From NCBI RefSeq assembly GCF_007858475.1, contig NZ_VIGX01000006.1, forward strand, positions 235,257-299,256: DNA of 64,000 bases. The letters are read 5' to 3'. Under the pieces are notes generated by a model, which was given only the letters and a program-made list of their open reading frames with translations, searched no databases and had not been told where the DNA came from. Both the position numbers and the translations under genes were made by a program. Below, one piece after another: positions 1,248-17,589 of the stretch. Position 1 is the stretch's first letter; the number at the start of each line of letters is the position of its first letter. The stretch comes from Tsukamurella conjunctivitidis (GTDB taxonomy: Bacteria; Actinomycetota; Actinomycetes; Mycobacteriales; Mycobacteriaceae).

Positions 1248-1397
1248 CGGGCTGGGCTCCTTCGCGAGCGGTGAACGGATCGCCCCATCGTGGGCGGGCC
1301 CGCGAACGCACTCGGCGCCGGGGGAGGGCGATGAGGAATCGGTGATCGGGCGGTAACCGGGCCGGGTGTCCGTGCGTAACACCGCCGGCGGTGCGGG

Positions 1398-2297
1398 TCA
1401 GGCGGTCGGAGCGGTCCGCGCCAGGACGACGTCGAACCGGGCGCGCGACCACGGTCGGCCTCCGAGGTCGTGCGCGGCAGGCACCGGTGCGCCCTCGGGC
1501 TGCGGCTCGAAGCGCTTGATCAGGGAGTCCTTGACGCCGAAGACGCTGTCGCCGACCACCAGCTGTTCGTCGCCCTCGACGAAGATGTGGGTCACGAGGG
1601 TGCGGTACCCGGGGGCGGAGACCATGAAGTGCAGGTGCGCGGCGCGCATGGGAGAGCGTCCGGTCGCCGCGAGCATCCGGCCGACCGGACCGTCCGCGGG
1701 GATGGGGTAGGGCGTGGGCGTCAGCCCCCAGAAGCCGTAGGAGCCGTCCTCGCGCGCCGCGAGCCGGGCCCGCGCGGCGGTGCGCTCGTCGTCGTACTGC
1801 ACGTCGTAGAAGCCGTCTTCGTCCGCCTCCCAGACCTCGATGCGGGCGCCGGGGACCGGCGCACCGTCGGTCCCGGTGACGGTTCCCTCGACCCAGCAGG
1901 GCTCGCCCGCCGCGCCGCCGGCGATGTCGCCGCCGAACGGGATCGACGGGGCGTCGTCGACGAAGAAGGGGCCGAAGACCGTGGCCTCGGTGGCGTCGCC
2001 GTCGAGCTCGTTGTTGACGGTGACCGTCTGCATGGACGCGCCGAGCACGTCGGAGAGCAGGATGAACTCGTGCCGGCGGTCGTCGGTGATGTGGCCGCAC
2101 GCGGTGAGGAAGTCGATCGCCGCGGACCATTCCTCCTCGGTGAGGCGGACCTCGCGGATGAACGAGTGCAGGTGCCGCACCAGCGATTCCAGCACCGTCT
2201 TCAGGCGCGGGTCCTCGGTGCGGGCGAAGGATTGCAGGACCCTCTCGACCAGGGCCTCTTCCGCGGCGGCCTGGTCGGTCGTCGTTGTCTCGTGCAC
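1398..2297 (-). CDS. Hydroxyquinol 1,2-dioxygenase (intradiol ring cleavage)
   Basis: Non-haem Fe(III) intradiol dioxygenase, 299 aa, expected to cleave hydroxyquinol (1,2,4-trihydroxybenzene) between C1 and C2 to maleylacetate. The N-terminal helical dimerisation domain spans about residues 15-100 and the catalytic beta-sandwich about 105-285. The four iron ligands fall at Tyr164, Tyr197, His221 and His223, which matches by position the ligands reported for hydroxyquinol 1,2-dioxygenases. The start is a GTG at 2297 preceded by AGGAG seven bases upstream. It is the last gene of a leftward operon after maleylacetate reductase, the enzyme that uses its product, with 8 bases between them. The substrate (hydroxyquinol rather than catechol) is inferred from that neighbour and the absence of muconate-pathway genes. 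Confidence 0.92.
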
Positions 2298-2305
2298 AGG
2301 GGCTC

Positions 2306-3361
2306 CTAGGCGGGCTCGGGCGTGGCACCGGACCACGCGTCGGACAGGATGCGGTCGAGGTCGGCCGCGGTCACCGGGCGGGGGTTGCCGGCCGGGACCA
2401 GCGGCAGGATCGCCTCGACGGCGGGGGCGATGTCGGCCTCGGTCATGCCGAGGTCGCGCAGGGACCGGGGTGCGCGCACCTCGTCGTACAGCGAGTTCAG
2501 GCCCGCGACGGCGGTGGCGGCGTCGAAGGCCGTCGCCAGCCGGGCCTCCGCCTCCGGTGCGGCGGGCGCGTTGAAGGCGAGGACGTGGGGGAGCACCGCG
2601 GTGTGCGTCTGCGCGTGCGGAAGGTCGAAGGCGCCGCCGAGGACGTGGCAGATCTTGTGGTGCAGGCCCGATCCGGCGGAGGAGAAGGCGGTCGCGGCGA
2701 GGTAGGCGGCGTAGAGCACCTGCTCGCGCCCGGCGAGATCCGACGGGTCCGCGGCGACGGCCGGCAGTCCCACGCGCAGCGCCCGGGCGGATTCCGCCGC
2801 GAGCACTCGGTCGATCGGATCGGCCCGCGGGCCCCACATCGCGTCGACACTGTGCGCGAGCGCGTTCAGCGCCGAGGCGATGCCGATGTCCGGGGGCAGG
2901 CCCAGGGTGAGGTCGGCGTCGTAGAGGATCGCGCGGGGCGCGACCCGCGGGTCGACGCCCGTGGTCTTGACGCCGTTCTCGGTCAGCCCCCACATCGACG
3001 TCGCCTCGGATCCGGAGTACGTGGTCGGGACGGCGACGATCGGGATCGAGGTGGTGAGGGCGATCGCCTTCGCGAGACCGATCGCCGAGCCGCCACCGAA
3101 GCACAGCAGCAGATCGGCGCGCGCCTCCGCCGCGGCCGCGCGGCCGCGCTCGGCGACCTCGACGGGCACGTGCATCGCCACGTCGTGGTGGCGGAGCGCG
3201 ACGGGGAGGTCCGCGGTGATCCGCGCGGCCCGGTCCGCCTCGCGCGGCGTGCAGATCAGCATGATCCGCTCGGCGCCGGCGGTGACATCGGCGAGCGCGG
3301 TGCGGGCCGCCCCCGACCCGAATCGGACCGTCTGGGTGAGGCTGTCGTGGGTGAAGTTCAT
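2306..3361 (-). CDS. Maleylacetate reductase (iron-containing alcohol dehydrogenase family)
   Basis: Predicted NAD(P)H-dependent reductase of 351 aa converting maleylacetate to 3-oxoadipate. It has the two-domain layout of group III Fe-type alcohol dehydrogenases: an N-terminal Rossmann-like half with the glycine-rich [19 protein letters not shown] segment (about residues 80-100) and a C-terminal helical half carrying His-rich motifs ([25 protein letters not shown]). Its ATG overlaps the stop of the upstream hydrolase in an ATGA at 3358-3361, so translation is coupled. Its position directly before the dioxygenase makes it the second step of hydroxyquinol breakdown. The 3-oxoadipate formed would be taken up by the pcaIJ and pcaF products encoded at 8.2-10.7 kb. 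Confidence 0.92.
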
Positions 3362-4413
3362 GCGCGGACCCCTCCGAGTCGTTCGGCGAACCAGTCCGCG
3401 GCCACCGCGTTCCGTTCGTCGGCGTGGTTGTAGATGGTGTGTTCTCCGTCGTCCCAGATCCGCAGTGTCGCATCGTCGGCGGCGTCGAGGAAGGGCTGTT
3501 GATCGGCCAGGTCCACCAGCGGGTCGGCGCCGCCATGCAGGACGAGCAGCGGGCACGGGATGGTTTCCGTCGCCGGGTCGAAGCGCAGGCGCGCGAAGTT
3601 CGCGGTGACGGCGGCGTCGTCGGTCGATCCCAGCATGGCCTTGGCCTGTTCGGCGAAGGTCCGGAAGTCGAGCAGGCGCGGCGCGGCGAAGGCGCCGTTG
3701 ACGCAGCACGCGGCGACGCCGGGACGCCGGGCAGCGGTGAGCGCGGCGAACAGGCCCCCGACGCTGTTGCCCCACACGCCGACCGGCCCGTCCGGCGTCG
3801 CGAGATCGACGAAGGCGCCGAACGCGGCGGCGACGTCCACGTCGAGGTGCACGCCGTGGACCAGCCGCGCGTCGCCCTGCCCGGGGCCCTCCGCGAGGAT
3901 CACGGCGAGCCCGCGGGCGAGCAGCGCATCGGCGTAGCGCAGGTAGGTGGCGCCCCAGCCGCTCTGGCCGCCGAAGACTACGACGGTGCCGCGCGGCGAG
4001 GTCGGCCGCAGGTGCCAGCCGGTCAGGGCGCCCGCGCCGAAGGCCGGCTCCACGCGGCGCATCGGGACCGGCGAGTGCGCGGCGGCGCCCGCCACGGCCC
4101 CGTCGAACCGCGCGTAGAGCGCGCGCTTGCGGTCGGTGTCGAAGTTGAAGGCCATCTGCGCGAACAGGAAGCAGGCCGCGGCCGCGCGGTGGCTCTCGTA
4201 CGCGGTGGCCGTCCGGCCCGCGTCGGCGGCGGCCTCGGCCTCGGCCGTCCGGGCCGCGCCGAGCTCCTCGGCGACCTCGTCCCACGCCCGGCCGGCGTCG
4301 GTGCCCGCCCGCAGCGCGAGGACGTCGTCGTAGCGCATCCCGGCGTCGAGCAGGCGCGTCACGCCCATCGCCCGCCAGTGGGCGTCGTTGGCTGCGGTCA
4401 CGTCGGCGCTCAT
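3358..4413 (-). CDS. Alpha/beta hydrolase resembling 2,6-dihydroxypseudooxynicotine hydrolase
   Basis: Soluble alpha/beta-hydrolase of 351 aa with a helical N-terminal domain (about 1-130) ahead of the catalytic fold. The nucleophile is Ser217 in VWGNSVGG, the acid is Asp297 in LHGGADPL and the base is His325 in [10 protein letters not shown]. Length, N-terminal extension and triad spacing look like the C-C-bond hydrolase of nicotine catabolism, which splits an acyl side chain from a dihydroxypyridine ring. It is locked into the operon by ATGA overlaps at both ends (4410-4413 and 3358-3361). I infer that it releases a resorcinol-type phenol from an acyl- or ester-substituted precursor before hydroxylation. 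A simple ester hydrolase role is equally possible. The family is clear, the substrate unknown. Confidence 0.8.
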
Positions 4414-6014
4414 CGGGCGACCGCCACGGCCGGTGCGGCGCTCAGCTTCACCCGGAGGTTGTCCACCAGCCGCGGCAGGTCGGCGAGGCCGCCGGCGCCG
4501 TACAGGTGGAAGTCGGGACGGGCGAGGAAGGCCTCGGTGCCGGTGGCCGCGAAATACGCGGCGTAGGTGCCGTCCTCGTCGACGATCGAGTGCGGATGCC
4601 CCGGCTCCAGGGTGACGACGGTGCCGCCGAGCTCGGCCAGGAACGCCAGGCGATCCGGCCCCAGGATCTCCGTCGCGTCGCCGGTGGAGACCAGGGTGAA
4701 GCCCCACGGGTGCAGGTCGTCGAACCGTCCCGAGCGCTCGCCCCGGCGCACCACGCCCTGCGGCGCCAGCGTGCCGGCGAAGCCCCTTGGGACCCCCGAC
4801 TCGTCGGTGTCGATCACGCCGGCGGCGATCGTCGGAAACGGGGGCAGGGGCGGCACCTCGCCGCGCTGGAAGGCGGCGTCGCGCGCCGCGGCGGCCACCG
4901 GATCCTTGAGGTTCGCCACGCGCCCCAGCTCCACGGCGCAGGCCTGGATGACCTCGACGTGCGGCCGGCGCTCGGCCTCGTAGGTGTCCAGCAGCGCGTC
5001 GCCGGCCCTGCCGGACAGCACCAGGTCGAGCTTCCAGGCGAGCGTGATCCCGTCGCGCATACCCGAACACGCGCCCTGCCCCATGTACGGCGGCATCGTG
5101 TGCGCGGCGTCGCCGGCCAGGAACACCCGGCCCGCGCGCCAGGTGTCGGCGATGCACGCGGAGAACGTGTAGACGATGTGGCGCAGGATCGTCAGGTCCT
5201 CGGGACCCAGGTCGTGCTGCGACCGGAGCCAGCGCCAGGCGAACTCCTCGGTGGCCATCTCGTCGGCGTCGTCCTCGGGGCGGACGGCGACCTCGAACCG
5301 CTGGCGGCTCCGCCCGATAGGCATGAACATGTGGGGCTGGTGCGGATCGCAGAACTGCCGGGCGGTGTCGAATCGATCACCCAGGGGGCGAGTGCATTCC
5401 GTGTCGATGTTGAGCCAGCGGTCGTCGACGTGCAGATCGGTGCGGCCGATCCCGAGGATGTGGCGGACCATGCTGCCCGCGCCGTCGGCGCCGACGACGT
5501 ACTTCGCGGTCAGCGTGCGCTCGGGGGCATCGGCCCATTGCGCGTCCCGGTCGCGCGACCAAGGGCGCACCGTCAGCTCGACGTGGTCGTCCGACTGCTC
5601 CATGCCGACCAGGATGGTGCCCTGATGCACGTCGAGGTCGGGGCGCGTGCGGTTGCGATCGTCGATCGAGCACTCGATGTGCGGCTGGTACATCGAGTAG
5701 TGGGCCGCGAAGCCGCTGGACTCGCCCGACCAGTCGACGGCGATCAGCAGGTCCTCGGCGTGGTTGCGCCATTCGTAGACGGCGGCGGGAGCGGCATCGC
5801 GCAGCGCCTCGTCGACGTCGCCCGCGGCCTGGATGATGCGTGCGGTCTCGCCGTCGATGTGGGTGAGCCGCGGCATGCCGTAGAGGCTCGGCCAGCGTTC
5901 GATCACCACCACGCGGTGCCCGGCGCGCGCCAGCATGGACGAGAGGACGAGGCCCGTCGGGCCGTAGCCGACGACGGCGACGTCGTAGTCAGTGGTTGTC
6001 GATTCGGTGTTCAC
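4410..6014 (-). CDS. FAD-dependent aromatic hydroxylase (MhpA/resorcinol-hydroxylase-like)
   Basis: Class A flavoprotein monooxygenase of 534 aa. It shows the three family fingerprints: GYGPTG nucleotide-binding loop at residues 16-21, the GADGAG segment near 175-180, and the ribose-binding AGDAAHTMPPYMGQG segment near 300-314. The C-terminal 130 residues match the thioredoxin-like extension of the phenol/MhpA group. As first gene of the operon ending in hydroxyquinol dioxygenase, it most likely hydroxylates resorcinol (or a close analogue) to hydroxyquinol using NAD(P)H and O2. It is transcribed divergently from the AraC regulator across 197 bases that contain a direct-repeat operator candidate. 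Whether its true substrate is free resorcinol or a substituted ring cannot be read from sequence. Confidence 0.88.
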   Translation of the reverse strand: MNTESTTTDYDVAVVGYGPTGLVLSSMLARAGHRVVVIERWPSLYGMPRLTHIDGETARIIQAAGDVDEALRDAAPAAVYEWRNHAEDLLIAVDWSGESSGFAAHYSMYQPHIECSIDDRNRTRPDLDVHQGTILVGMEQSDDHVELTVRPWSRDRDAQWADAPERTLTAKYVVGADGAGSMVRHILGIGRTDLHVDDRWLNIDTECTRPLGDRFDTARQFCDPHQPHMFMPIGRSRQRFEVAVRPEDDADEMATEEFAWRWLRSQHDLGPEDLTILRHIVYTFSACIADTWRAGRVFLAGDAAHTMPPYMGQGACSGMRDGITLAWKLDLVLSGRAGDALLDTYEAERRPHVEVIQACAVELGRVANLKDPVAAAARDAAFQRGEVPPLPPFPTIAAGVIDTDESGVPRGFAGTLAPQGVVRRGERSGRFDDLHPWGFTLVSTGDATEILGPDRLAFLAELGGTVVTLEPGHPHSIVDEDGTYAAYFAATGTEAFLARPDFHLYGAGGLADLPRLVDNLRVKLSAAPAVAVAR

Positions 6015-6072
6015 GGCTCTCCTTCATCGCGGGACTGGGGCGATGCATGCACGCTACGAAGCTGTGATCGGT

Positions 6073-6103
6073 GCCACTATCCGCGCGGCGACAGCGCTAT
6101 CCG
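6073..6103. promoter_or_regulatory. Candidate AraC operator: direct repeat of CTATCCG, 20-bp period
   Basis: In the 197-bp region between the divergent monooxygenase and AraC genes, CTATCCG occurs at 6077-6083 and again at 6097-6103, each with C two bases before it. The 20-bp period (two helical turns) is the usual spacing of half-sites bound by an AraC-type activator. A separate perfect 12-bp palindrome CCGCAGCTGCGG lies at 6142-6153. Assignment to the neighbouring AraC protein is inferred from position. Confidence 0.45.
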
Positions 6104-6211
6104 ATTCCCGCCGGGAAGTGGTGACATGGATCGCAGTTCCGCCGCAGCTGCGGTGTAACCTGCAGGTGGGAGCGCTTTCGAGGCGGTCCGGCGAGTGTGG
6201 AGGCGATGCCG

Positions 6212-7237
6212 ATGTGGGGTGGGATAGAGCCCGGTGGCGGGGCGACGCCTGCGCCGCTCGGCCGGTTCGACAGCCTCCGCACCGCCGACGTCGACGCCTT
6301 CCGCAGCGCCGCCGGCGGTCTGCTCAGCACGCACTCGATCGCGGTGCCCCGCGGCGCCACCACCCTGTTCGACGGTGCGGTCCGCTCCGCGACGGTCGCC
6401 GACCTCGGCGTGGTCTACCTGGAGCAAGGCGCGCCGATCGACGTCGACATCCTCGACCGGATCGACTACTACGACCTGATGATCGCCGTGGCCGGGTCCA
6501 ATCGCCTCGAACTCGTCGGAGCGGGCGGAGGCGCGGTGATCGAGGGCGGAGTCGCCGCCGTCCTCTCGCCCGCGATGCGGGCCCGGATGCGGATGGACGG
6601 CGCCTACCGCCAGTTGCATCTGCGGCTCGAACGCGCCGCCGTACACGAGCGCATGGAGGCCCTCGTCGGCCGGCCCGTCGGCGGCCCCGTGGTCTTCGAC
6701 GTGGGGATGGACCTCGCCGCGCCGGGGCTCCGCAGCTGGTCGGGCGCGCTGCGCTCGTTGCTGCGCGATCTCGACGACGAGGCCGGGCTCGCGGCCGATC
6801 CCGCGATGGCGCGGCACTGGCGGGACCTGCTCATCACCGGTCTGCTCGTTTCCCACCGGCACAACCACTCGGCACTGGTGCACGAGCGCGACGAGGACCG
6901 GGTGCATCCGCGGACCTTCCAGCGCGCGCTCGACCACATCGAGGCGCGGCTGCGCGGCCCGCTGTCGGTGCCAGACGTGGCCGCCCACGTCGGCATCAGC
7001 GTGCGTTCCCTACAACGCGCCTTCCAGGACCGGCTCGAGACCTCGCCCAGCGCGTACATCCTGGGGGAGCGGCTCGACCGGGTTCGCGCGGAACTACTGG
7101 CGCCGGATTCCGCGCGCACCGTGACGGATACGGCCTTCGACTGGGGGTTCACCCACCCCTCGCGGTTCTCCTCCCTGTACCGGCGCCGGTTCGGTGAGAC
7201 GCCCTCGCAGAGCCGGGCCCGCGCCGCCGGTCGGTGA
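6212..7237 (+). CDS. AraC-family transcriptional activator
   Basis: Regulator of about 341 aa. The N-terminal two thirds resemble the cupin-like AraC_binding_2 sensor domain (effector and dimerisation), and the C-terminal ~100 residues hold the two helix-turn-helix motifs: LSVPDVAAHVGISVRSLQRAF and TVTDTAFDWGFTHPSRFSSL followed by the FGETPSQSR tail. I choose the ATG at 6212 because GGAGG at 6199-6203 lies eight bases upstream; an ATG at 6206 is too close to it. It is divergent from the monooxygenase operon, so it probably senses a ring-hydroxylation substrate or product and activates that operon and perhaps itself. It converges on the LysR gene with a 15-base gap. Confidence 0.88.
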   Translation: MWGGIEPGGGATPAPLGRFDSLRTADVDAFRSAAGGLLSTHSIAVPRGATTLFDGAVRSATVADLGVVYLEQGAPIDVDILDRIDYYDLMIAVAGSNRLELVGAGGGAVIEGGVAAVLSPAMRARMRMDGAYRQLHLRLERAAVHERMEALVGRPVGGPVVFDVGMDLAAPGLRSWSGALRSLLRDLDDEAGLAADPAMARHWRDLLITGLLVSHRHNHSALVHERDEDRVHPRTFQRALDHIEARLRGPLSVPDVAAHVGISVRSLQRAFQDRLETSPSAYILGERLDRVRAELLAPDSARTVTDTAFDWGFTHPSRFSSLYRRRFGETPSQSRARAAGR

Positions 7238-7252
7238 CCGGCCGGGCCGGGC

Positions 7253-8143
7253 TCAGGTCGCGGCGGTGAGGTCGGCGATGACCTCCGTGACGCGCTCGAG
7301 GTGGCGATCGGTCCGGTCCGTCACGTGCGCGACAGCCAGCTCGACGCCGCCGCCGGCTCCGCCGAGCGGCCGGTAGGTCAGGCCGTCGAGCCGCAGCGCC
7401 GTGATCGGTTCGGGCGCCACCGCGATGCCCAGCCCGGCGGCGACGAGCGTCGCGAGCGTCGATGTCTCGCCGACCTCGTGGCGGATCATCGGCGCCACGC
7501 CGCCCTCGCGGAGCAGCGCCACGACCCGGTCGTACATCGCCGAACGCCGGCCCGCGCTGTGGACGATGAACGGCGCCCCGGCGAGGTCCGCGACCCGCAG
7601 CCGGTCCCGGCGAGCCAGGGGATGATCGGTCGGCAGGGCGACGACCCACGGCTCGCGGCGCAGCACCCGTACCGTCAGCGACGGGTCGGCGACCGGCGGG
7701 CGCAGCAGCGCGATGTCGATGGCGCCCCTGCGCAGCGCCTCGACCTGGTCCGGCACGAGCATCTCGCCACGGAAGGCGAAGTCGATGCCGGGCAACTCGT
7801 CCTCGAGCCGGCGGGCCAGCGGCGGCAACAGGCTGTACGTCGCCGTGCCGACGCAGCCGATGGTCAGGTGCCCCGTCGCGCCCGCCGCGACACGTCGCGC
7901 GTGCTCGGCGGCGTCGTCGACCGCGGCGAGAATGGTGCGCGCCCGCTCCAGGTAGGCCCGCCCGGCGTCGGTCAGCTCGACCCGGCGGGTGGTGCGGTGC
8001 AGCAGTTGGACCCCCAGATCGTCTTCGAGTTGGCGGATCTGTTGGGACAGCGGCGGCTGCGCCATGTGCAGCCGCTGCGCCGCGCGGCCGAAGTGCCGTT
8101 CCTCGGCGACCGCGACGAAGTACCGCAGCTGGCGAAGATTCAT
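7253..8143 (-). CDS. LysR-family regulator of the 3-oxoadipate (pcaFIJ) operon
   Basis: LTTR of 296 aa. The N-terminal winged helix occupies residues 1-60 (MNLRQLRYFVAVAEERHFGR... through the AQPPLSQQIRQLE helix), followed by a linker helix and a two-lobed periplasmic-binding-like effector domain (about 90-290). The N-terminus is typical of the CatR/CatM/BenM/PcaQ group that senses aromatic-degradation intermediates. It is divergent from pcaF, with 71 bases between the start codons, and that gap contains two inverted repeats, one next to each gene. It most likely activates pcaFIJ in response to a pathway metabolite such as maleylacetate, 3-oxoadipate or its CoA ester; the inducer is a guess. 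Confidence 0.9.
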   Translation of the reverse strand: MNLRQLRYFVAVAEERHFGRAAQRLHMAQPPLSQQIRQLEDDLGVQLLHRTTRRVELTDAGRAYLERARTILAAVDDAAEHARRVAAGATGHLTIGCVGTATYSLLPPLARRLEDELPGIDFAFRGEMLVPDQVEALRRGAIDIALLRPPVADPSLTVRVLRREPWVVALPTDHPLARRDRLRVADLAGAPFIVHSAGRRSAMYDRVVALLREGGVAPMIRHEVGETSTLATLVAAGLGIAVAPEPITALRLDGLTYRPLGGAGGGVELAVAHVTDRTDRHLERVTEVIADLTAAT

Positions 8144-8160
8144 ATTGCTAGAATATCAAT
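8144..8160. promoter_or_regulatory. Candidate LysR box ATTG-N9-CAAT
   Basis: Immediately upstream of the LysR start codon, ATTG at 8144-8147 and CAAT at 8157-8160 form an inverted repeat that fits the T-N11-A LTTR rule. Its place over the LysR start region suggests autoregulation. Confidence 0.45.
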
Positions 8161-8171
8161 TGGGCATTATT

Positions 8172-8189
8172 CAGGTACTTCAGTATCTG
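8172..8189. promoter_or_regulatory. Imperfect palindrome over the pcaF promoter
   Basis: CAGGTACT-TC-AGTATCTG is an 18-bp near-perfect inverted repeat (one mismatch per arm pair). It lies 12 bases upstream of the putative pcaF -10 hexamer TACCGT (8202-8207), so it covers the -35 position, as expected for an LTTR activation site. Confidence 0.45.
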
Positions 8190-8201
8190 GATTGTTCGCC
8201 C

Positions 8202-8207
8202 TACCGT
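8202..8207 (+). promoter_or_regulatory. Putative -10 (TACCGT) for leaderless pcaF
   Basis: TACCGT ends seven bases before the pcaF ATG and no Shine-Dalgarno sequence is present, consistent with transcription starting at the start codon. Confidence 0.45.
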
Positions 8208-8214
8208 CGTTCGT

Positions 8215-9399
8215 ATGGATGCATACGTCTACTCCGCCGCACGCACGCCGTTCGGGCGCTTCTCGGGTGCGCTCGCCGGCGTCCGGCCCGACGACCTGGC
8301 CGCCACCGCGATCCGCGCCGTCCTCGACCGCACTCCCGCGCTCGGTGCGGGCACGGCCGTCGACGAGGTCGTGTGGGGGAACGCCAACGGGGCCGGCGAG
8401 GACAACCGCAACGTCGGCCGGATGGCGGGACTTCTCGCGGGGATTCCGGTCAGCGTCCCCGCGACCACGGTCAACCGCCTGTGCGGCTCCGGACTCGACG
8501 CGGCGATGATGGGCAGCCGCGCGATCGAGACCGGCGATGCCGAGGTGGTGCTCAGCGGCGGCGTCGAGTCCATGACCCGAGCGCCGTGGGTCCTGCCGAA
8601 GAACACCAAGCCCTTTCCCGCCGGCGACGTCACTGCGGTCTCGACGACCCTCGGCTGGCGGCTGGTCAACCCCGCCATGCCCGTCGAGTGGACCGTCAGC
8701 CTCGGTGAGGCCAACGAACAACTCGGCGAGAAGTTCTCCGTCTCCCGCGCGCGGCAGGACGAGTTCGCGGCGCTCTCGCACCGTCGGGCCCACACGGCGT
8801 GGGAGGAGGGCTTTTACGACGACCTCGTGGTCCCCGTCGACGGGCTCGAGCGCGACGAGAACGTCCGGCCCGGATCGACCGCCGAGAAGCTGAGCGAGCT
8901 GAGGCCCGCGTTCCGGCCCGACGGGACGATCACCGCCGGCAACGCCAGCCCGCTCAGCGACGGCGCCGCCGCGGTGCTGCTGGGATCGGACCGCGCCGCG
9001 GCGACGATCGGGCGCGACCCCCTCGCGCGGATCGCGGGCCGCGGCGCAGCGGCCCTGGAGCCGCAGCTGTTCGGCTACGCGCCGGTCGATGCGGCGAACC
9101 GGGCTCTCGCCCGCGCCGGGATCAGCTGGGGCGACGTCGGGGTCGTCGAACTCAACGAGGCCTTCGCGGTGCAGTCCCTGGTGTGCATCGACGCCTGGGG
9201 GATCGACTCCGCGATCGTCAACCCGTACGGCGGCGCCATCGCGCTCGGACACCCGCTCGGAGCGTCCGGCGGGCGCCTGCTCGGCACCCTCGCGAAGGCC
9301 CTGCGGCGGCGTCGCGAGCGGTACGGCGTCGCGGCGATCTGCATCGGCGTGGGGCAGGGCCTCGCCGTCGTCCTGGAGAACACGGAGGTCGGGGCATGA
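8215..9399 (+). CDS. pcaF: 3-oxoadipyl-CoA thiolase (acetyl-CoA acyltransferase)
   Basis: Thiolase of 394 aa that cleaves 3-oxoadipyl-CoA with CoA into succinyl-CoA and acetyl-CoA. The catalytic residues are all present: nucleophile Cys90 in TVNRLCGSGLDA, His346 in ALGHPLGASGGR and Cys376 in AAICIGVGQG. The early DEVVWGNANGAGEDNRNVGRM segment and length are typical of PcaF/PaaJ rather than of FadA. It is first in the pcaFIJ operon: its stop overlaps the start of the CoA-transferase alpha subunit in an ATGA at 9396-9399. The substrate assignment rests on that CoA-transferase pair and the maleylacetate reductase nearby. Confidence 0.92.
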   Translation: MDAYVYSAARTPFGRFSGALAGVRPDDLAATAIRAVLDRTPALGAGTAVDEVVWGNANGAGEDNRNVGRMAGLLAGIPVSVPATTVNRLCGSGLDAAMMGSRAIETGDAEVVLSGGVESMTRAPWVLPKNTKPFPAGDVTAVSTTLGWRLVNPAMPVEWTVSLGEANEQLGEKFSVSRARQDEFAALSHRRAHTAWEEGFYDDLVVPVDGLERDENVRPGSTAEKLSELRPAFRPDGTITAGNASPLSDGAAAVLLGSDRAAATIGRDPLARIAGRGAAALEPQLFGYAPVDAANRALARAGISWGDVGVVELNEAFAVQSLVCIDAWGIDSAIVNPYGGAIALGHPLGASGGRLLGTLAKALRRRRERYGVAAICIGVGQGLAVVLENTEVGA

Positions 9400-10091
9400 G
9401 CAGGGCAGTGGTGCACGAGGGCGTCGACGACGCGGTCGCCGGCATCGAGGACGGATCGACGGTCCTGATCGGCGGCTTCGGGTTGGCGGGCATGCCCTTC
9501 GACCTCATCGACGCCCTCATCCGGCAGGGCGCCACCGACCTCACTGTGGTGTCCAACAACGCGGGCAACGGCGACGTCGGTGTCGCCGCCCTGCTCGCGG
9601 CGGGCCGCGTCCGCAAGGTGGTGTGCTCCTTCCCCCGGCAGAGCGACTCGTACGTCTTCGACGGGCTCTACCGTGCGGGGAAGATCGACCTCGAGGTCGT
9701 TCCCCAGGGCAACCTCGCCGAACGCATGCGCGCCGCGGGCGCGGGCATCGGCGGCTTCTACTGCCCGACGGCCGTCGGTACGCTCCTCGCCGAGGGCAAG
9801 GAGTCGCGCGAGATCGACGGCCGGACGTACCTGCTCGAGTACCCGATCCGCGGCGACTACGCGCTGATCGCGGCGCATCGCTCCGATCCCTGGGGCAATC
9901 TCGTCTACCGCAAGACCGCCCGCAACTTCGGGCCGGTCATGGCGACGGCCGCGGCGACCACGATCGTCCAGGTCGACGAGGTCGTGCCGCTCGGCGCGAT
10001 GGACCCGGAGGCGGTCGTGACGCCGTCGATCTTCGTCGACCGGATCGTCGCCGTCGACGCCCGGCACTACACCGTGGAGGGAGCACGATGA
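9396..10091 (+). CDS. pcaI: 3-oxoadipate CoA-transferase, alpha subunit
   Basis: Family I CoA-transferase subunit A, 231 aa. The CoA-binding loop is visible in SVLIGGFGLAGMP-like residues near 22-34, followed by the conserved VSNNAGNGDVG and GGFYCPTAVGT blocks. With PcaJ it moves CoA from succinyl-CoA to 3-oxoadipate. The gene overlaps pcaF upstream and pcaJ downstream (ATGA at 10088-10091), so the two subunits are made in a coupled 1:1 manner. An acetoacetate CoA-transferase (AtoD/ScoA) would look similar; pathway context decides for 3-oxoadipate. Confidence 0.9.
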   Translation: MSRAVVHEGVDDAVAGIEDGSTVLIGGFGLAGMPFDLIDALIRQGATDLTVVSNNAGNGDVGVAALLAAGRVRKVVCSFPRQSDSYVFDGLYRAGKIDLEVVPQGNLAERMRAAGAGIGGFYCPTAVGTLLAEGKESREIDGRTYLLEYPIRGDYALIAAHRSDPWGNLVYRKTARNFGPVMATAAATTIVQVDEVVPLGAMDPEAVVTPSIFVDRIVAVDARHYTVEGAR

Positions 10092-10723
10092 GCGCGCAAC
10101 GCCTGACGATGGAGGAACTTGCGGCCCGCATCGCCCGCGACATCCCGAAGGGCGCCTACGTCAACCTCGGGATCGGGCAGCCGACGAAGGTCGCGGACCA
10201 CCTTCCACCGGAGCGGGAGGTCGTGCTCCACACCGAGAACGGGATGCTGGGTATGGGGCCCACCGCCACCGGGGACCTCGTCGACCCGGACCTCACGAAC
10301 GCCGGCAAGGTCCCCGTCACGGAGCTCCCGGGGGCCGCGTACTTCCACCACGCCGACTCCTTCGCGATGATGCGCGGCGGCCACATCGACGTCTGCGTGC
10401 TCGGCGCCTACCAGGTCTCCGAGCACGGGGACCTCGCCAACTGGCACACCGGGCGCGAGGGCGACATCCCCGCCGTCGGCGGCGCGATGGACCTCGCCAT
10501 CGGTGCGAAGCAGGTGTACGTGATGATGTCGCTGCTGAACAAGTCCGGTGAGCCCAAGCTCGTGCCGGCCTGCACCTATCCGCTCACCGGGCTCGGCTGC
10601 GTGAACCGGGTCTACACCGACGTGGCGGTCTTCGAGACCGGGCCCGACGGGGTCCGGGTGCTCGAGACCTTCGGCATCGGGACCGACGAGCTCCGGGATC
10701 TCCTGCCCGTCGCCCTGCGGTGA
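10088..10723 (+). CDS. pcaJ: 3-oxoadipate CoA-transferase, beta subunit
   Basis: Family I CoA-transferase subunit B, 211 aa. The catalytic glutamate that carries the CoA-thioester intermediate is Glu50 in LHTENGMLGMG. The GAAYFHHADSFAMMRGGH and GVPACTYPLTG-like blocks are as in PcaJ/ScoB. It ends the pcaFIJ operon, 46 bases before the convergent beta-propeller lipoprotein gene, and that gap is filled by a strong hairpin. There is no pcaGH, pcaB, pcaC or pcaD in the window, so this operon appears fed by the hydroxyquinol branch, at least locally. Confidence 0.9.
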   Translation: MSAQRLTMEELAARIARDIPKGAYVNLGIGQPTKVADHLPPEREVVLHTENGMLGMGPTATGDLVDPDLTNAGKVPVTELPGAAYFHHADSFAMMRGGHIDVCVLGAYQVSEHGDLANWHTGREGDIPAVGGAMDLAIGAKQVYVMMSLLNKSGEPKLVPACTYPLTGLGCVNRVYTDVAVFETGPDGVRVLETFGIGTDELRDLLPVALR

Positions 10724-10728
10724 CGCCG

Positions 10729-10769
10729 CGCGCCCGGGCATCGTCCGTCCTCGAACGGTGCCCGGCGCG
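10729..10769. terminator. Bidirectional terminator between pcaJ and the lipoprotein gene
   Basis: The whole 46-base gap between two convergent stop codons is a stem-loop: left arm CGCGCCCGGGCA at 10729-10740, right arm TGCCCGGCGCG at 10759-10769, one bulged C, with further CCGT/ACGG pairing in the loop. There is no T-tract, which is usual in high-GC actinobacteria. Confidence 0.6.
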
Positions 10770-12101
10770 TCAGTTCTTGGCGACGCTGTCGCCGGTGCGG
10801 CGGCCGGACGTGAAGGCGAAGACCGTGCCGTCGTTCCCGACCGTGACCAGCTCGCCGTCGGGCCCGATCGAGACGCCCGAGGCGGACGTGACCGAGTCCG
10901 GCAGGTCGAAGGTGCGCAGCGTGGTGCCGGTGTCCGTGCGGAACTCGATGAGCTGCGACTGCACCGCCGCCCACGACCGGATCACCGCGTAGCCGACACC
11001 GCCGCGGATCTGCGTCACGGGGGAGACCATCGCGACGTCCGTCCGCTTGAAGACCTCCCGCACGCTCGAGCCCTCGTCCTTGAGCGCGATGAACGAGGCG
11101 CGGTGCAGGCCGGGCGCGGCGGGGATGATCGTCCCGTCGGGCGAGACCGACGGGGGCAGCGTGCTCTGGTACCCGAGATCGTGCGTCCACTTGGTGGCGC
11201 CGGTCTTCGCGTCGAGCGCGGCCAGCTTCTCGCCCCGCAGGTTCACGTACAGGGTGGAGCGGTCCGACGACAGCGCGGGAGAGCCGATCGCGCCGTCCGG
11301 GAGGTCCGTGCGCTCCCAGGCGTACCGCAGGTCGTGCCGGCTGCCGCCGTTCTTGTCGTAGTCGACCGCCATCACCTTCGACGGTGCGCCCTTCGACCCG
11401 ACGACCACGAAGGCGCGCTCGGCCTCCGTGTCGACGGCGGGCGGGCCGGAGACGGGGCAGCCGGGGCCGTTCGTCGCGCAGTCCTCGAGGCCGGCGCCGT
11501 TGGCGTTCGCCGAGACCTGCGGGAACAGCCCGATCGCGGCGCCCGCGGCGACCCCGTCGTGCGTGTCCACGAGCACCATCTGGCCGAGGTGCGTCACGCC
11601 GAGCACGGTGTTGTCCCCGGCGAGTTTGATCCACAGCGGCGTGCCCGCGGTGGGGTAGCGCCAGCGCACCTGGTTGTCGGCGTTGAAGCTGTACAGCCAA
11701 CCGGGGATGCCGAGGTACGTGTAGTCGAACTGGTCCACCAGGGGGGCCTGCAGGTCGGCGCCCGCGGCGTCGCGCCGGCAGTAGGTCTTGCGGCCCACGG
11801 TGAGCTCGAGGTTGAAGGTGCTGCAGCCGGTCTCGGTACGAGCGGTCACCGAGACGACACCGCGGTTGGAGATCGCGGGCGCCACGGTGTTCGGTCCGAC
11901 GAGGTCGCGGTTCCAGGCCGGGACGAGGGAGGGGGCGGCGTCCTTCTCCGCGTACGAGTTGTTGCGGGAGTCGCCGTACATGCCGGGCCAGGCGGCGGAG
12001 TCGTCGGCGTACACCCAGGTGTCGTCCGGCGTGCACGAGACCAGCACCGCGGCGGCGGCCACGGTCGCGCCCAGTGTGAGCGCGCGCCTACCCAACCGCA
12101 T
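10770..12101 (-). CDS. Secreted beta-propeller (PQQ-like repeat) lipoprotein, Rv3035-like
   Basis: Exported protein of 443 aa. A signal peptide with positively charged start (MRLGRRALTLG) ends in the lipobox VLVSC, so Cys22 should be lipidated and anchored at the membrane. The remainder shows repeated blades of the PQQ/YncE type (for example PAISNRGVVSVTA, VLGVTHLGQMVLVDTHDG, TLYVNLRGEKLAALDAKTG). No catalytic residues are recognisable; a scaffold or binding role is likely. The start at 12101 has GGGAG six bases upstream. It is divergent from the hexapeptide acyltransferase, the same pairing as Rv3035 and Rv3034c in M. tuberculosis, next to the MGLP genes. Confidence 0.8.
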   Translation of the reverse strand: MRLGRRALTLGATVAAAAVLVSCTPDDTWVYADDSAAWPGMYGDSRNNSYAEKDAAPSLVPAWNRDLVGPNTVAPAISNRGVVSVTARTETGCSTFNLELTVGRKTYCRRDAAGADLQAPLVDQFDYTYLGIPGWLYSFNADNQVRWRYPTAGTPLWIKLAGDNTVLGVTHLGQMVLVDTHDGVAAGAAIGLFPQVSANANGAGLEDCATNGPGCPVSGPPAVDTEAERAFVVVGSKGAPSKVMAVDYDKNGGSRHDLRYAWERTDLPDGAIGSPALSSDRSTLYVNLRGEKLAALDAKTGATKWTHDLGYQSTLPPSVSPDGTIIPAAPGLHRASFIALKDEGSSVREVFKRTDVAMVSPVTQIRGGVGYAVIRSWAAVQSQLIEFRTDTGTTLRTFDLPDSVTSASGVSIGPDGELVTVGNDGTVFAFTSGRRTGDSVAKN

Positions 12102-12956: not shown

Positions 12957-13157
12957 CGCCGCACGAGGTCGGCGAGGAGCCCCGCACGGAAGTCGCGCAC
13001 TCGAGGGAGTCGTCCACGAAGTGGTGCCGGCAGTCGGCGGGGCGCTGCAGGAAGGTGATCGCCGCGCGCACAGGGCGGGGCGCGGCCCTTCGCCGACTGG
13101 GCGCGCGACCGCCGAGCGGAGTTCGACATCCGCTAGGTGTGCCTGGAGCCCGTGGCG
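12957..13157. other. Intergenic stretch with a possible gene remnant
   Basis: 201 bases between two convergent genes. One short forward segment (about 13089-13136) reads FADWARDRRAEFDIR followed by TAG, and on the reverse strand about 13000-13080 reads a plausible but open-ended peptide. Neither has a start codon with a ribosome-binding site or a length compatible with a gene. It may be decayed coding DNA or simply GC-rich spacer. Confidence 0.3.
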
Positions 13158-13685
13158 CTAGAGCACGTAGAACGGACGGGCGTAGTGGAACTCGCCGCGC
13201 AGATCCGGCGTGTACGCGCCGAGCGTGCGCACCATGAACGAGTCGCCCGACCATTCCGCGACGTCGGGCACGACGCCGACCTCGGAGCCGGGGACGAAGC
13301 CGAAGCGCGGGTAGAAGTCCTTGTGGCCGAGCAGCGCCACGAGCCGCTCGCCGAGGGCGTCGGCGGCGCCGAGGGCGGCGAGGATCAGCGCCGAGCCGGT
13401 GCCCTTGGCCTGCTGCTCGGACCGCACCCCGAGGGGGCCCGCCGCGAGCACCGGGGTGTCGCCGACGGTGGCGCGGGTGAGGCAGACGTGGCCGATCACG
13501 GTGCCGTCGTCGTCCTCCGCGACGAAGGAGAGCTCGTCGATCCACGACCCGCTCAGGCGCAGCGCCTCGACCAGGACGACCTCGAGCGGTTCCGTGCGTC
13601 CGGGCGGCGTCATCGGGGCGAACGCGCTCCGGTGCACATCGGCGACCGCGGCGTGATCCGCCGGCGTCTCGTTCCGGATCAGCAC
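13158..13685 (-). CDS. GNAT-family N-acetyltransferase
   Basis: GNAT enzyme of 175 aa using acetyl-CoA. Motif A, the CoA pyrophosphate loop, reads GVRSEQQAKGTGSALI (about residues 85-100); the beta4-beta5 region carries GHVCLTRATV, and the C-terminal part LLGHKDFYPRFGFVPG is the pattern of YhbS-like members. The GTG at 13685 is preceded by GGAG and begins LIRNETPADHAAVADVHRSAF, the true fold start; upstream residues are not family-like. Acceptor substrate unknown. It is on the same strand as the downstream MGLP genes but 116 bases separate it from the glycosyltransferase stop. Confidence 0.85.
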   Translation of the reverse strand: MLIRNETPADHAAVADVHRSAFAPMTPPGRTEPLEVVLVEALRLSGSWIDELSFVAEDDDGTVIGHVCLTRATVGDTPVLAAGPLGVRSEQQAKGTGSALILAALGAADALGERLVALLGHKDFYPRFGFVPGSEVGVVPDVAEWSGDSFMVRTLGAYTPDLRGEFHYARPFYVL

Positions 13686-13801
13686 GCCCGGCGCTCCGCG
13701 AGGTCGGCGGGAAGGGCGTGCAACGGGCTTGCGGTCATGAATCGACGGTGCCACAGGATTCACGATCATGCACATCGCGCAGGTCGTGGGGCCGGGCGCG
13801 T

Positions 13802-15109
13802 TCAGACCGGGTTGGTGGGGTCCCGCTCGGGGAGCGGCCGCTCATCGATGACGCGGCGCCCGAGCGGGGTGCGTGGGCGACGTTTCGCGGCCAGGTACAC
13901 CTGCGCCGTCTCGTGGGCCACGGCCTCCCAACTGAGCTCCTCCACCTCGGCGCGCGCCGCGGCGGCCCAGCGGTACGACGACGCGGGGTCGTCGAGCAGG
14001 GCCCGGATCGCCGCCGTCAGGCCCGGCACGTCGGCCGGCTCGACCGACAGGCCGGTCTCGCCGGTGCGGATGAAGTCGGCGAGGCCGCCGGCCGTGGTGG
14101 CGATGACGGGAATGCCCGTCGCGGCGCCCTCGAGCGCGACGATGCCGAAGGGCTCGTAGCGCGACGGGATCACGAGGGCATCGGCCGAGTGCAGCTGGGC
14201 GACGAGCTCCTCGTGGTCCAGCGCGCCCGTGAACTCGACGGCCCGCAGGACCCGGTGCTCCCGCGCGACCTCGCGCAGCCACGCGGCCTGCGTGCCGTCG
14301 CCGGCCACCGTCAGCGTGGTTCCCGGGTGCGTGCGGCGCACCCGGGCGAGCGCGGCGATCAGATCCTGCACGCCCTTCTCGTACTCGAGCCGGCCGACGT
14401 ACAGGAGGCGGGGTGCGCCGCGCCGCGCCGCGGTGCGGGAGCGATCCCGGTACGGCCAGGCGGTGGCGTCGATGCCGTTCGCGATGGTGTGCAACTGCGC
14501 GAGGCCGGGACCGAAGAGGCGGTTCACCTCGTCGGACATGGAACGGGAGCAGGTGATCACCGCGTCCGCCTCGTTCGCGAGCCACCACTCGGTGGAGTGC
14601 ACCTGGCGGTTCACCGGCCCCGAGACCCAGCCGCTGTGCCGTCCGGCCTCGGTGGCGTGGATGGTCGCGACCAGGGGCGCGTCGAAGGCCTCCGCGAGCC
14701 CGACGGCGGCGTGCGCCGCCAGCCAGTCGTGGGCGTGCACCACGTCGGGCACCCAGGGGCGGCCGACGGTGCCGGCGCCGTGCAGCGCGTCCTCGCCGGC
14801 GGTCGGGTTGTACCCGGCCAGCCGCAGGCCCGCGCGCAGCATGGAGTGCCCCATGGACAGCACCCACGGCATCATGTCGGTGCCGAAATCGAGTGCGAGG
14901 GGGTCCTCCGCCGCCATGATGACGCGGATCCCGTCGACCGTCGCGTCGGTGGTGGGATGGCTGCGCGGGTCGGTGCCGGTGGGCCGGCGCGAGACCACGA
15001 CCACCTCGTGCCCCTGGTCGCGCAGCTGCAGCGCCAGATGATGGACGTGCCGGCCGAGGCCGCCCACGACCACCGGCGGGTACTCCCAGGAGACGAGCAG
15101 GACGCGCAT
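13802..15109 (-). CDS. GT4-family alpha-glucosyltransferase, Rv3032-like (glycogen/MGLP elongation)
   Basis: Glycosyltransferase of 435 aa with GT-B fold. The N-terminal domain begins RVLLVSWEYPPVVVGGLGRH, the acceptor-side signature of glycogen-synthase-like GT4 enzymes, and the C-terminal nucleotide-sugar domain has LLYVGRLEYEKGVQDLI and the E-x7-E motif in SRYEPFGIVALEGAATG. In M. tuberculosis the homologue elongates alpha-1,4-glucan used for MGLP and glycogen. It follows the GH57 gene with a single base between stop and ATG, and the methyltransferase lies upstream, so all three form one leftward operon. Product: cytosolic alpha-1,4-glucan built from ADP- or UDP-glucose (donor unproven). 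Confidence 0.9.
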   Translation of the reverse strand: MRVLLVSWEYPPVVVGGLGRHVHHLALQLRDQGHEVVVVSRRPTGTDPRSHPTTDATVDGIRVIMAAEDPLALDFGTDMMPWVLSMGHSMLRAGLRLAGYNPTAGEDALHGAGTVGRPWVPDVVHAHDWLAAHAAVGLAEAFDAPLVATIHATEAGRHSGWVSGPVNRQVHSTEWWLANEADAVITCSRSMSDEVNRLFGPGLAQLHTIANGIDATAWPYRDRSRTAARRGAPRLLYVGRLEYEKGVQDLIAALARVRRTHPGTTLTVAGDGTQAAWLREVAREHRVLRAVEFTGALDHEELVAQLHSADALVIPSRYEPFGIVALEGAATGIPVIATTAGGLADFIRTGETGLSVEPADVPGLTAAIRALLDDPASSYRWAAAARAEVEELSWEAVAHETAQVYLAAKRRPRTPLGRRVIDERPLPERDPTNPV

Positions 15110-15110
15110 G

Positions 15111-16646
15111 TCAGAACCCTCCCAGTGGCGCCGGGAGGCGCCGGGCGTCGAGGCCGGGGAACGGATCGTCGGCGTGCCGCCACCCGCGCGCCAGTGCGAC
15201 CGCGCGGTCCTCGTCGCCGCGCTCGGCCGCCTCGGCGATCTCGCGCAGGGCGTGCGCGTGTTTGTAGGCGCGGTCGCGGGCGTACCCGGCGGCGGTGTCC
15301 TTCGAGACCATGAAGGGCCAATCGGACTGCAGGCACATCAGCGCCTCCTGCAGCACCTGGTCGCCGACCACGTCGCGCATGCCGTGCTGCTCCGCGGCGC
15401 GCTTGTCCAGCACGCGCAGTGTCGTGGCGGTGATGTCCTCGTTCAGCTCGACGAACTCGCGGACCAGAGGGCCGTCCCAGACGTGCCAGTCCTTGCCCGA
15501 CCCCCACGAGCTGGCGGGGATCTCCCGCGCCTCGCCCACGTACCCGGCCTCCGCGGCGGAGCGCAGCGTGCCGACGCGCACGCCGGCCTCGGGGAGCGCG
15601 CGCAGTACGCGCTCCAGCCAGATCGGGCCCTCGTACCACCAGTGCCCGAACAGTTCGGTGTCGAAGGCGGCGACGACCAGCGCGTCGCGACCGATGCGCG
15701 CGCTCTCCGCGCGAACGCGAGCGACGACGGTGTCCACGAAGTCGGCGACGTGCTTGTCGATGGCGGCGTCGGCCCGGGCGGGGTCGTAGGGCGCCTTGTC
15801 CGCCTCGGCGACGTTCTTGCCCGTCACCCGGCTCGGCTTGAGACCGGTGGCGTGATCGTGTGCGTAGAAGTCGCGGTAGGAGGCGTGCCCGGGATAGCCG
15901 GACTTGGGCGACCAGACGCGGTAGCTCACCGGCAGGTCGCGGCCGAAAGCGAGGACGGAGGACTCGCCGACGGGGTGCGCGAGCGCCGTGTCGCCCCCGA
16001 GGGTGGGGCCGTCGACCATGAAGTGCGTGACGCCCGCGGCCTCGTAGCCGAGTTCCATGCCGGGCTTGTAGGCGCACTCGGGCGCCCAGATGCCGGTGCG
16101 GGCGGGCGATCCCAGACGGGCGGTGCCGTAGGCGAGGCCCTCGCGCAGCGCGAGCTCGCGCAGGCGGGGGTGCAGCAGGGGCTGGAACGGGTGCGCCAGC
16201 GGGCCGCCCAGCAGTTCGACCGTGCCGGCGTCGGCGAGGCGGCGCAGGACCGGAGTCCCGCCGTGACGCCAGCGCGTCTCGAACAGATCGAGCGCGTGCG
16301 CGGAGTTGCGGTGTTCGCGCGCGCCGAGTTCGGCCGCGGCAGGGCGACCCGACAGGGCCGCCTCGTGCGCGCGCAGCTGCCAGTTGCCGAGGTAGTGGTG
16401 CATCGCCTCGAGGCAGTACGGGTCGTCGAGCTGCGCGGCGAGTACCGGCGTCACGCCGAGCGTGAGCTGATCGGTGCGGCCCTCGGCGGCGAGCCGGTCG
16501 AGCATTTCCGTCACGGGCAGGTACGAGGCGGCCCACGACTGGTACAGCCATTCCTCGCCGACGGGCCACGCGCCGTGGTGCGCGAGCCACGGCAGGTGGG
16601 AGTGCAGGACGAAGGCGATCATCCCGGGCTCGCGCCCGGAGGTCAC
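15111..16646 (-). CDS. GH57-family glucan-branching enzyme, Rv3031-like
   Basis: GH57 protein of 511 aa. Starts with the family signature FVLHSHLPWL; region 4 carries VVAAFDTELFGHWWYEG, where Glu is the expected nucleophile region and the Asp-containing THFMVDGP and GIWAPECAYKPG blocks contain the other conserved acidic residues. DUF1957-type C-terminal helices (about 420-511) complete the branching-enzyme layout. It should introduce alpha-1,6 branches in the glucan made by the neighbouring GT4 enzyme. It begins with GTG at 16646, overlapping the methyltransferase stop in a GTGA, and ends one base before the GT4 start. An alpha-amylase activity is the alternative; the operon favours branching. 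Confidence 0.9.
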   Translation of the reverse strand: MTSGREPGMIAFVLHSHLPWLAHHGAWPVGEEWLYQSWAASYLPVTEMLDRLAAEGRTDQLTLGVTPVLAAQLDDPYCLEAMHHYLGNWQLRAHEAALSGRPAAAELGAREHRNSAHALDLFETRWRHGGTPVLRRLADAGTVELLGGPLAHPFQPLLHPRLRELALREGLAYGTARLGSPARTGIWAPECAYKPGMELGYEAAGVTHFMVDGPTLGGDTALAHPVGESSVLAFGRDLPVSYRVWSPKSGYPGHASYRDFYAHDHATGLKPSRVTGKNVAEADKAPYDPARADAAIDKHVADFVDTVVARVRAESARIGRDALVVAAFDTELFGHWWYEGPIWLERVLRALPEAGVRVGTLRSAAEAGYVGEAREIPASSWGSGKDWHVWDGPLVREFVELNEDITATTLRVLDKRAAEQHGMRDVVGDQVLQEALMCLQSDWPFMVSKDTAAGYARDRAYKHAHALREIAEAAERGDEDRAVALARGWRHADDPFPGLDARRLPAPLGGF

Positions 16647-17383: not shown

Positions 17384-17429
17384 TCTTCTCAGCCTAGTCG
17401 TCGCGGGGCGTGGGCCATCCCACATGGAC

Positions 17430-17447
17430 AGTTACCAATCGGTAACT
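17430..17447. promoter_or_regulatory. Perfect inverted repeat AGTTACC-AATC-GGTAACT
   Basis: A perfect 18-bp palindrome with 7-bp arms lies 46 bases upstream of the methyltransferase start and about 140 bases upstream of etfB. Its size and symmetry fit a TetR- or GntR-type operator. No regulator gene is adjacent, so the protein acts in trans. Confidence 0.55.
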
Positions 17448-17589
17448 TACTCTGGCGTTAAACAGTGTTGTGAGGCGGTGCTACCTTCTACTCGCTGAAG
17501 CTCAGGCGGGGGAGGATTATCCGTACCTCGCCGCAGTGTGAGAATGTGCCTACGAGTATCCGATCATCGATGGAGGTCGACGAAGACCA

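Follow-up and report, generated by a model that had tools for sequence, protein, structure and literature searches.

A cluster of four leftward genes was analyzed in a 64,000-nucleotide stretch of the Tsukamurella conjunctivitidis genome (contig NZ_VIGX01000006.1; hereafter the window). These genes encode a flavin adenine dinucleotide (FAD)-dependent aromatic hydroxylase, an alpha/beta hydrolase, a maleylacetate reductase (MAR) and a hydroxyquinol 1,2-dioxygenase (HQDO) (Table 1). It is tentatively proposed, with a little less than an even chance of being right, that this block constitutes a full catabolic cassette whose substrate is a C-acylated resorcinol, namely a 2,4-dihydroxyphenyl ketone, and whose products would act in the order hydroxylase, C-C hydrolase, HQDO, MAR. 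The hydroxylase would add a hydroxyl group to the still acylated ring, converting the 2,4-dihydroxyphenyl ketone into a 2,4,5-trihydroxyphenyl ketone, and the hydrolase, which resembles the 2,6-dihydroxypseudooxynicotine (DHPON) hydrolase of the nicotine pathway, would then split the aryl-acyl C-C bond of this electron-rich ring through a retro-Claisen-type hydrolysis that releases hydroxyquinol along with a carboxylic acid. HQDO would open hydroxyquinol to maleylacetate, which MAR would reduce to 3-oxoadipate, while an AraC-family and a LysR-family regulator may govern the two halves of the route. That hydroxylase and hydrolase form a functional unit is well supported; the substrate of this unit is proposed from sequence.

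The families and positions of the four genes, from 1398 to 6014, had been given in a preliminary description of this DNA and were confirmed. The same applies to the ATGA overlaps joining the first three genes, at the hydroxylase/hydrolase and hydrolase/MAR junctions; at the MAR/HQDO junction, TAG is followed by eight bases and then by the GTG start of HQDO, without overlap. HQDO is made of the Pfam domains Dioxygenase_N and Dioxygenase_C and carries Y164, Y197, H221 and H223 at exactly the numbers given earlier, residues that we take to be the Tyr2His2 iron ligands of HQDO. The structures matched by MAR include the maleylacetate reductases 3w5s and 3hl0.

Sequence comparisons support the assignment of the hydrolase to the DHPON-hydrolase group. 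Its best solved relative is the DHPON hydrolase 2jbw (phmmer, residues 20-344, E 1e-16), which was also matched by a profile of 47 hydrolases with an E-value of 1e-26, AntI being the next best solved relative. Further structures matched by this profile are an acylaminoacyl peptidase, a MHETase, Ayg1-like proteins, AbyA5, FrsA and lipases. No NCBIfam match was found at 0.001. Alignment with the annotated DHPON hydrolase of Paenarthrobacter nicotinovorans pAO1 (hhalign, probability 99.3, 27% identity) extends over 324 columns from column 18, and the homology takes in most of the N-terminal part, as the preliminary description had proposed. The GPGQG motif and the Ser-Asp-His triad are common to both enzymes, the triad S217/D297/H325 standing at the very positions named earlier and being unchanged in all 47 aligned hydrolases. 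The pAO1 enzyme differs by its substrate, which contains a pyridine ring, and by its neighbors, which include kdh genes, a cupin gene and dhpH, no HQDO or MAR being annotated in the 12.6-kb stretch read. According to PMC11069340, DHPON hydrolase cleaves a C-C bond of 2,6-dihydroxypseudooxynicotine. In Saccharothrix (L053) and Sciscionella (L055), at about 13090-18020, the operon is followed by a cupin gene and, on the opposite strand, by a molybdenum hydroxylase set, an arrangement that recalls the kdh genes and cupin near the DHPON hydrolase of the nicotine pathway.

An alternative is that the hydrolase is an ordinary esterase or lactonase opening a resorcinol ester or lactone, without any C-C chemistry. 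Its Pfam matches are indeed generic (Hydrolase_4, Abhydrolase_1 and Peptidase_S9), and the matched structures comprise monoglyceride lipases and a MHETase. This alternative is nevertheless considered very improbable: DHPON hydrolase and AntI give the longest and strongest matches, Ayg1-like proteins following lower down, and it would be hard to see why a broad esterase should be inherited and fused with one particular hydroxylase. The 324-column homology to DHPON hydrolase argues instead for the proposed cassette, as does the fact that the solved relatives next in rank include AntI and Ayg1-like proteins.

A scan of named genomes for close relatives of the hydrolase yielded 46 loci. The hydroxylase gene lies directly upstream of the hydrolase gene, on the same strand, at 45 of them, the sole locus without it being that of Prauserella aidingensis (L075), and the association therefore exceeds chance. 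HQDO is found near the hydrolase at 24 loci and MAR at 25; the full four-gene neighborhood, which was sought in other bacteria, is present at 23, and an AraC homologue is close to the hydrolase at 24. Actinobacterial loci include those of Tsukamurella, Gordonia, Rhodococcus, Skermania, Antrihabitans, Sinomonas, Actinomadura, Streptomyces, Nocardioides and Brevibacterium; other loci include those of Rhizobium, Ensifer, Devosia, Bradyrhizobium and Burkholderia. Two copies are apparently decaying: in R. koreensis (L047), counted among the 23 four-gene loci, a split hydroxylase is accompanied by only partial matches to MAR and HQDO; in Gordonia rhizosphera (L045), a 58-residue MAR match was found and no HQDO match ahead of the thioesterase gene. 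Among the 301 genomes of the family to which the window belongs, 19 contain a hydrolase match at 1e-20, with best identities of at least 62% in nine, 38-42% in eight and 27-29% in two. One of the first nine carries an additional copy at 39%, and a FAD hydroxylase adjoins all nine copies at 38-42% identity. The closest named relatives at this locus are Tsukamurella, the hydrolases of T. sputi, T. pseudospumae and T. sp. M9C being 93, 88 and 86% identical. Six of the nine copies just mentioned, at loci L033-L038, belong to a second hydroxylase-hydrolase pair, with a hydrolase 37-39% identical, in a different gene cluster that contains amidohydrolase, CaiB-like (assigned by reading), citrate-synthase-like and aconitase-like genes and a LigB-type or HQDO-type dioxygenase.

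The association was also examined in the reverse direction, by searching with the hydroxylase in the 301 genomes of the family and 394 genomes of the class. The hydrolase adjoins the hydroxylase at all 12 places where the latter is at least 43% identical, the gene of genome G289, found in two pieces, being counted once. At identities of at most 41%, 27 places were examined (26 of the 35 family-search matches, leaving nine unexamined, and one from the class search; four have fewer than 600 bases on the relevant side): seven hold the hydrolase, all in its 38-42% group, four a TsdA-like gene and 16 neither. The preliminary description had named near absence of the hydrolase from related hydroxyquinol operons as speaking against its reading. 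Operons with this hydroxylase show the opposite, as the 12 places illustrate, whereas near absence does apply to HQDO operons at large: among plasmid records, an HQDO-like match over 80% of the query occurs in 437, catechol dioxygenases included, and the hydrolase in eight. A tree built from 75 hydroxylases places 45 hydrolase-linked sequences, together with one long branch, in a single clade (100/100), and the four TsdA-linked hydroxylases in a separate one (100/100).

The hydroxylase passes the NCBIfam subfamily NF004829 (527 bits, cut-off 390) and misses the MhpA equivalog cut-offs (179 vs. 966 bits for NF004827 and 297 vs. 546 for NF004831), E. coli MhpA itself reaching 1288 bits on NF004827. 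The preliminary description had drawn a parallel with gra-type clusters, which contain hydroxylase, reductase and dioxygenase. GraD, however, is part of a two-component system, and a single-component TsdB-like hydroxylase is a better model. An analogous operon, of gamma-resorcylate type and matching the tsd genes, is that of the RHA1-like genome G229 (L106). It has the same order of hydroxylase, side-chain enzyme, MAR and HQDO, and its hydroxylase also passes NF004829, with 515 bits. It differs by an Amidohydro_2 decarboxylase-like protein where the window has the hydrolase, no TsdA-type decarboxylase (Amidohydro_2) being part of the window operon. The TsdA-like neighbors seen at four loci each stand beside hydroxylases other than the hydrolase-linked ones, in the distinct clade mentioned above. 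This gene order supports the earlier idea that the hydrolase acts on a side chain, while being neutral on cleavage before or after hydroxylation.

Gene fusions bear on the order of the steps. Hydroxylase and hydrolase occupy a single frame in two Pseudonocardiaceae, Pseudonocardia kujensis (L058:8411-11086, 891 residues) and Amycolatopsis tucumanensis (L084:8396-11080, 894 residues), and hydrolase and HQDO do so in two Nocardioides (L068:9992-11911, 639 residues, and L072:10049-11911, 620 residues), Pfam domains having been run on the proteins of L058 and L068. Since each fusion occurs in two species and without ambiguous bases, a single sequencing slip is unlikely, and the fused proteins are candidate bifunctional enzymes. 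Three orders were compared, and in just one of them, hydroxylase, hydrolase, HQDO, does each fusion link a step to the next. In the order put forward by the preliminary description, the hydrolase would instead deacylate an acylresorcinol to resorcinol, which the hydroxylase would convert into hydroxyquinol as in a gamma-resorcylate-like route. The nicotine pathway likewise cleaves ahead of hydroxylation, and both the gene order, with a decarboxylase-like gene in the hydrolase position, and the shared hydroxylase subfamily of the RHA1-like operon point the same way. We nonetheless hold this order to be doubtful: most hydrolase-linked hydroxylases make up a clade distinct from that of the TsdA-linked ones, the hydroxylase is co-inherited with the hydrolase, unlike HQDO, and the hydrolase-HQDO fusion would skip a step. 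The claim that the hydrolase strips an acyl group off a resorcinol-like ring thus keeps its direction, given synteny, two kinds of fusion and the replacement of a decarboxylase, whereas cleavage before hydroxylation is disfavored by the fusions and by co-inheritance.

Over 24 loci, the distances of hydroxylase and hydrolase are the most closely correlated (Spearman 0.79), compared with 0.53 for hydrolase and MAR and 0.44, the lowest value, for hydrolase and HQDO. A different inheritance is observed for HQDO. The window HQDO is 73% identical to HQDOs of Pseudarthrobacter chlorophenolicus A6 and of Kocuria plasmids, and 45-51% identical to many HQDOs of hydrolase operons. In the HQDO tree, enzymes of hydrolase operons are intermixed with those of other contexts, with seven label changes of which at least five are forced. 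Such mixing is expected if HQDO sees plain hydroxyquinol. The generic parts would be exchanged and the hydroxylase-hydrolase pair retained, which would fit a pair that deals with the unusual substrate and delivers plain hydroxyquinol to the rest of the route.

This bears on a third order, in which the acyl group would stay in place during the hydroxylase, HQDO and MAR steps and the hydrolase would come last, splitting a 4-acyl-3-oxoadipate into a carboxylic acid and 3-oxoadipate. Such a substrate is a 1,3-diketone and chemically easy. Moreover, Baek et al. 2022 (Environ Pollut 299:118890), a study cited in PMC10754744 and PMC9557007, is reported to describe this order for benzophenone-3 in Rhodococcus sp. 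S2-17, where degradation is assigned to a P450, a flavin oxidoreductase, HQDO and MAR, with an alpha/beta hydrolase for the final step. The logic is shared with the route proposed for the window, both leading from an aryl ketone to a carboxylic acid and 3-oxoadipate via hydroxylase, HQDO, MAR and alpha/beta hydrolase. Genome G237, in which all 3,241 bases tested are identical to plasmid pRB98 of S2-17 and have the same coordinates there, was used as a stand-in for this strain. Its only HQDO match above 35% identity (67%) lies near MAR, a flavin monooxygenase of the acyl-CoA-dehydrogenase fold, a P450 and a 264-residue Abhydrolase_6 protein, all within 20 kb, and this neighborhood probably corresponds to the published benzophenone-3 genes; no HQDO match was found at 0.001 on the three named S2-17 plasmids. 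The HQDO and MAR genes are common to this candidate cluster and to the window, whereas the window has a FAD_binding_3 hydroxylase and a 351-residue DHPON-type hydrolase in place of the other two families. The S2-17 hydrolase was rejected as an orthologue of the window hydrolase, to which G237 shows no match at 1e-10; a 16-row hydrolase profile gave six partial matches in it, the best with 8.7e-13 over 130 positions. Late cleavage is therefore regarded as unlikely for the window operon: besides these different families, both fusion types would link non-consecutive steps, many loci have the pair but no HQDO or MAR close by, and two identity classes are seen for HQDO and MAR, with HQDO mixed among other contexts, whereas hydroxylase and hydrolase are retained. 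In the HQDO tree, the S2-17-like enzyme has its nearest relative on R. rhodochrous plasmid pNit (L176, 191-5843), where a P450 with ferredoxin and reductase-type neighbors precedes MAR and HQDO, perhaps another aryl-ether or aryl-ketone route.

Several results weigh against the proposed cassette and its order of steps. HQDO, MAR or both are missing within about 4 kb of the hydrolase at 23 of the 46 loci, some contigs ending first, and MHETase and lipases occur among the structural matches, as noted above. Three smaller groups of hydrolase-linked hydroxylases lie outside the main clade (five changes, three forced); because they sit elsewhere in the tree, the link to the hydrolase was gained or lost more than once. 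All five distance pairs tested exceed 1000 permutations, so that only the ranks of the correlations are informative. For the HQDO tree, the 35-row set, with nine rows from other contexts, had a shuffled mean of 8.2 changes and 101 of 500 shuffles as low as observed. In the 37-row set, which adds L114 (S2-17-like genome) and L035 and has 11 such rows, the mean was 9.6 and 17 of 500 shuffles were as low. These nine to 11 rows were picked by hand, and the context label is somewhat clustered in the larger tree, yet far from a single origin. Besides, the S2-17 HQDO reportedly cleaves an acylated ring, and a generic HQDO is thus no proof of a deacylated substrate. Finally, the ifc isoflavone cluster of Variovorax contains a Group A FAD monooxygenase and a hydrolase 25% identical to DHPON hydrolase, and knock-out of this DHPON-hydrolase-like gene left daidzein degradation unaffected, as stated in PMC11069340. 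The ifc cluster differs from the window operon by its Glyoxalase/FdeC-type ring-cleavage enzyme, and hydroxyquinol does not appear in the main text of this paper.

No description of the four-gene set with this hydrolase was found in the literature, a weak negative given that subscription papers were mostly outside the search. The earlier statement that the route had not been described was too strong, the same logic being reported for benzophenone-3 in S2-17; as far as the literature searches show, it holds for the enzyme set with a DHPON-type hydrolase, other enzyme families being used in S2-17. Altogether, the preliminary observation was confirmed and its interpretation, partly supported, was right in direction and revised in its details.

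The operon belongs to a segment that is present or absent as a whole in Tsukamurella (Table 1). Among 16 genomes of the genus, the hydrolase is found in four and the neighboring thioesterase gene (285-1247) in ten; seven have the thioesterase without the operon. At the six of these loci that were read, the thioesterase adjoins the gene found at 10770-12101 in the window (at 0.2-0.4 kb in five and 1.7 kb in L173). Both flanks are kept there, and the 16-17 kb read contain no match to any of the nine segment genes. In a DNA comparison with L168, L169 and L170, flanking homology ends at window positions 1385-1394 and 10763-10765, with 13, 12 and 215 bases between the flanks, respectively. The thioesterase gene, kept in genomes of the same genus without the block, was rejected as a member of the operon unit; it encodes a double-hotdog thioesterase with 51% identical relatives near the operons of both Antrihabitans species. 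The segment also contains 3-oxoadipate genes, which supports the proposed cassette, and is predicted to carry the route as far as central metabolism. Its thiolase stays under the strict TIGR02430 cut-off (430.8 vs. 597 bits), making PcaF a likely rather than a certain name, and the two CoA-transferase genes are joined by an ATGA overlap. The AraC-family regulator likely controls the divergent operon, and the LysR-family regulator the adjacent 3-oxoadipate genes.

Table 1. Operon genes, neighboring genes and segment in the window, named by sequence similarity unless indicated.
Feature	Position	Strand	Product	Remarks
FAD-dependent single-component aromatic hydroxylase, TsdB/MhpA-type (gene 1)	4410..6014	-	534 aa, GTG start	Pfam FAD_binding_3
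Alpha/beta hydrolase, DHPON-hydrolase-like (gene 2)	3358..4413	-	351 aa	Triad S217/D297/H325; proposed C-C deacylase
MAR (gene 3)	2306..3361	-	351 aa	PDB 3iv7, E 2e-121
HQDO (gene 4)	1398..2297	-	299 aa, GTG start	PDB 1tmx, E 4e-142
AraC-family regulator, divergent from operon	6197..7237	+		Pfam AraC_binding_2, HTH_18
LysR-family regulator	7253..8143	-		Pfam LysR_substrate; within present/absent segment
3-Oxoadipyl-CoA thiolase-like (PcaF-type)	8215..9399	+		TIGR01930, 414 bits (cut-off 240.55)
3-Oxoacid (3-oxoadipate) CoA-transferase subunit A	9408..10091	+		TIGR02429, 354 bits (cut-off 128.5; query 9396-10091)
CoA-transferase subunit B	10088..10723	+	211 aa	Name by position only
Present/absent segment: operon, two regulators, 3-oxoadipate genes	about 1395..10762			9.4 kb; flank comparison

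Relatives were also found on plasmids. No record of the phage collection matched the hydrolase at 1e-5. One lies on a conjugative Agrobacterium plasmid and another on a mobilizable Pseudosulfitobacter plasmid, beside HQDO, MAR and a 3-keto-5-aminohexanoate cleavage protein; the latter, encoded directly after HQDO (L177:9940-10767), may represent an alternative use of 3-oxoadipate. A Herbiconiux plasmid (L179, 6570-18301) encodes a hydrolase of 45% identity, separated from a hydroxylase by an acyl-CoA thioesterase II, and thiolase, FabG, MaoC and acyl-CoA dehydrogenase genes some distance further on, which hints at an aliphatic side chain in this variant.

According to PMC11069340, certain rhizobia cleave the isoflavone C-ring, yielding resorcinol, and soil microorganisms had no known genes for isoflavone catabolism before that study. 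A wider reading, which we regard as speculative and quite unlikely, is that hydroxylase and hydrolase together make up a mobile deacylation module, widely distributed and hitherto unrecognized, that releases hydroxyquinol or resorcinol from C-acyl-resorcinol natural products, the A-rings of 5-deoxy-flavonoids and chalcones among them. The missing enzyme by which Rhizobium, Ensifer, Bradyrhizobium and Burkholderia obtain resorcinol when the C-ring of legume isoflavones is cleaved could then be this module, and the fusions would be bifunctional enzymes channeling an unstable trihydroxy ketone. The hydroxylase-hydrolase pair would add a general funnel from acyl-resorcinols, such as plant phenolics, UV filters and polyketides, into the hydroxyquinol pathway; to our knowledge, bacterial aryl-ketone routes are known for few compounds. 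The pair is conserved in Actinomycetota and Pseudomonadota, sometimes plasmid-borne and sometimes fused, and it provides candidate C-C hydrolases for benzenoid rings, by which the old question of rhizobial resorcinol release from isoflavones becomes testable on named genes.

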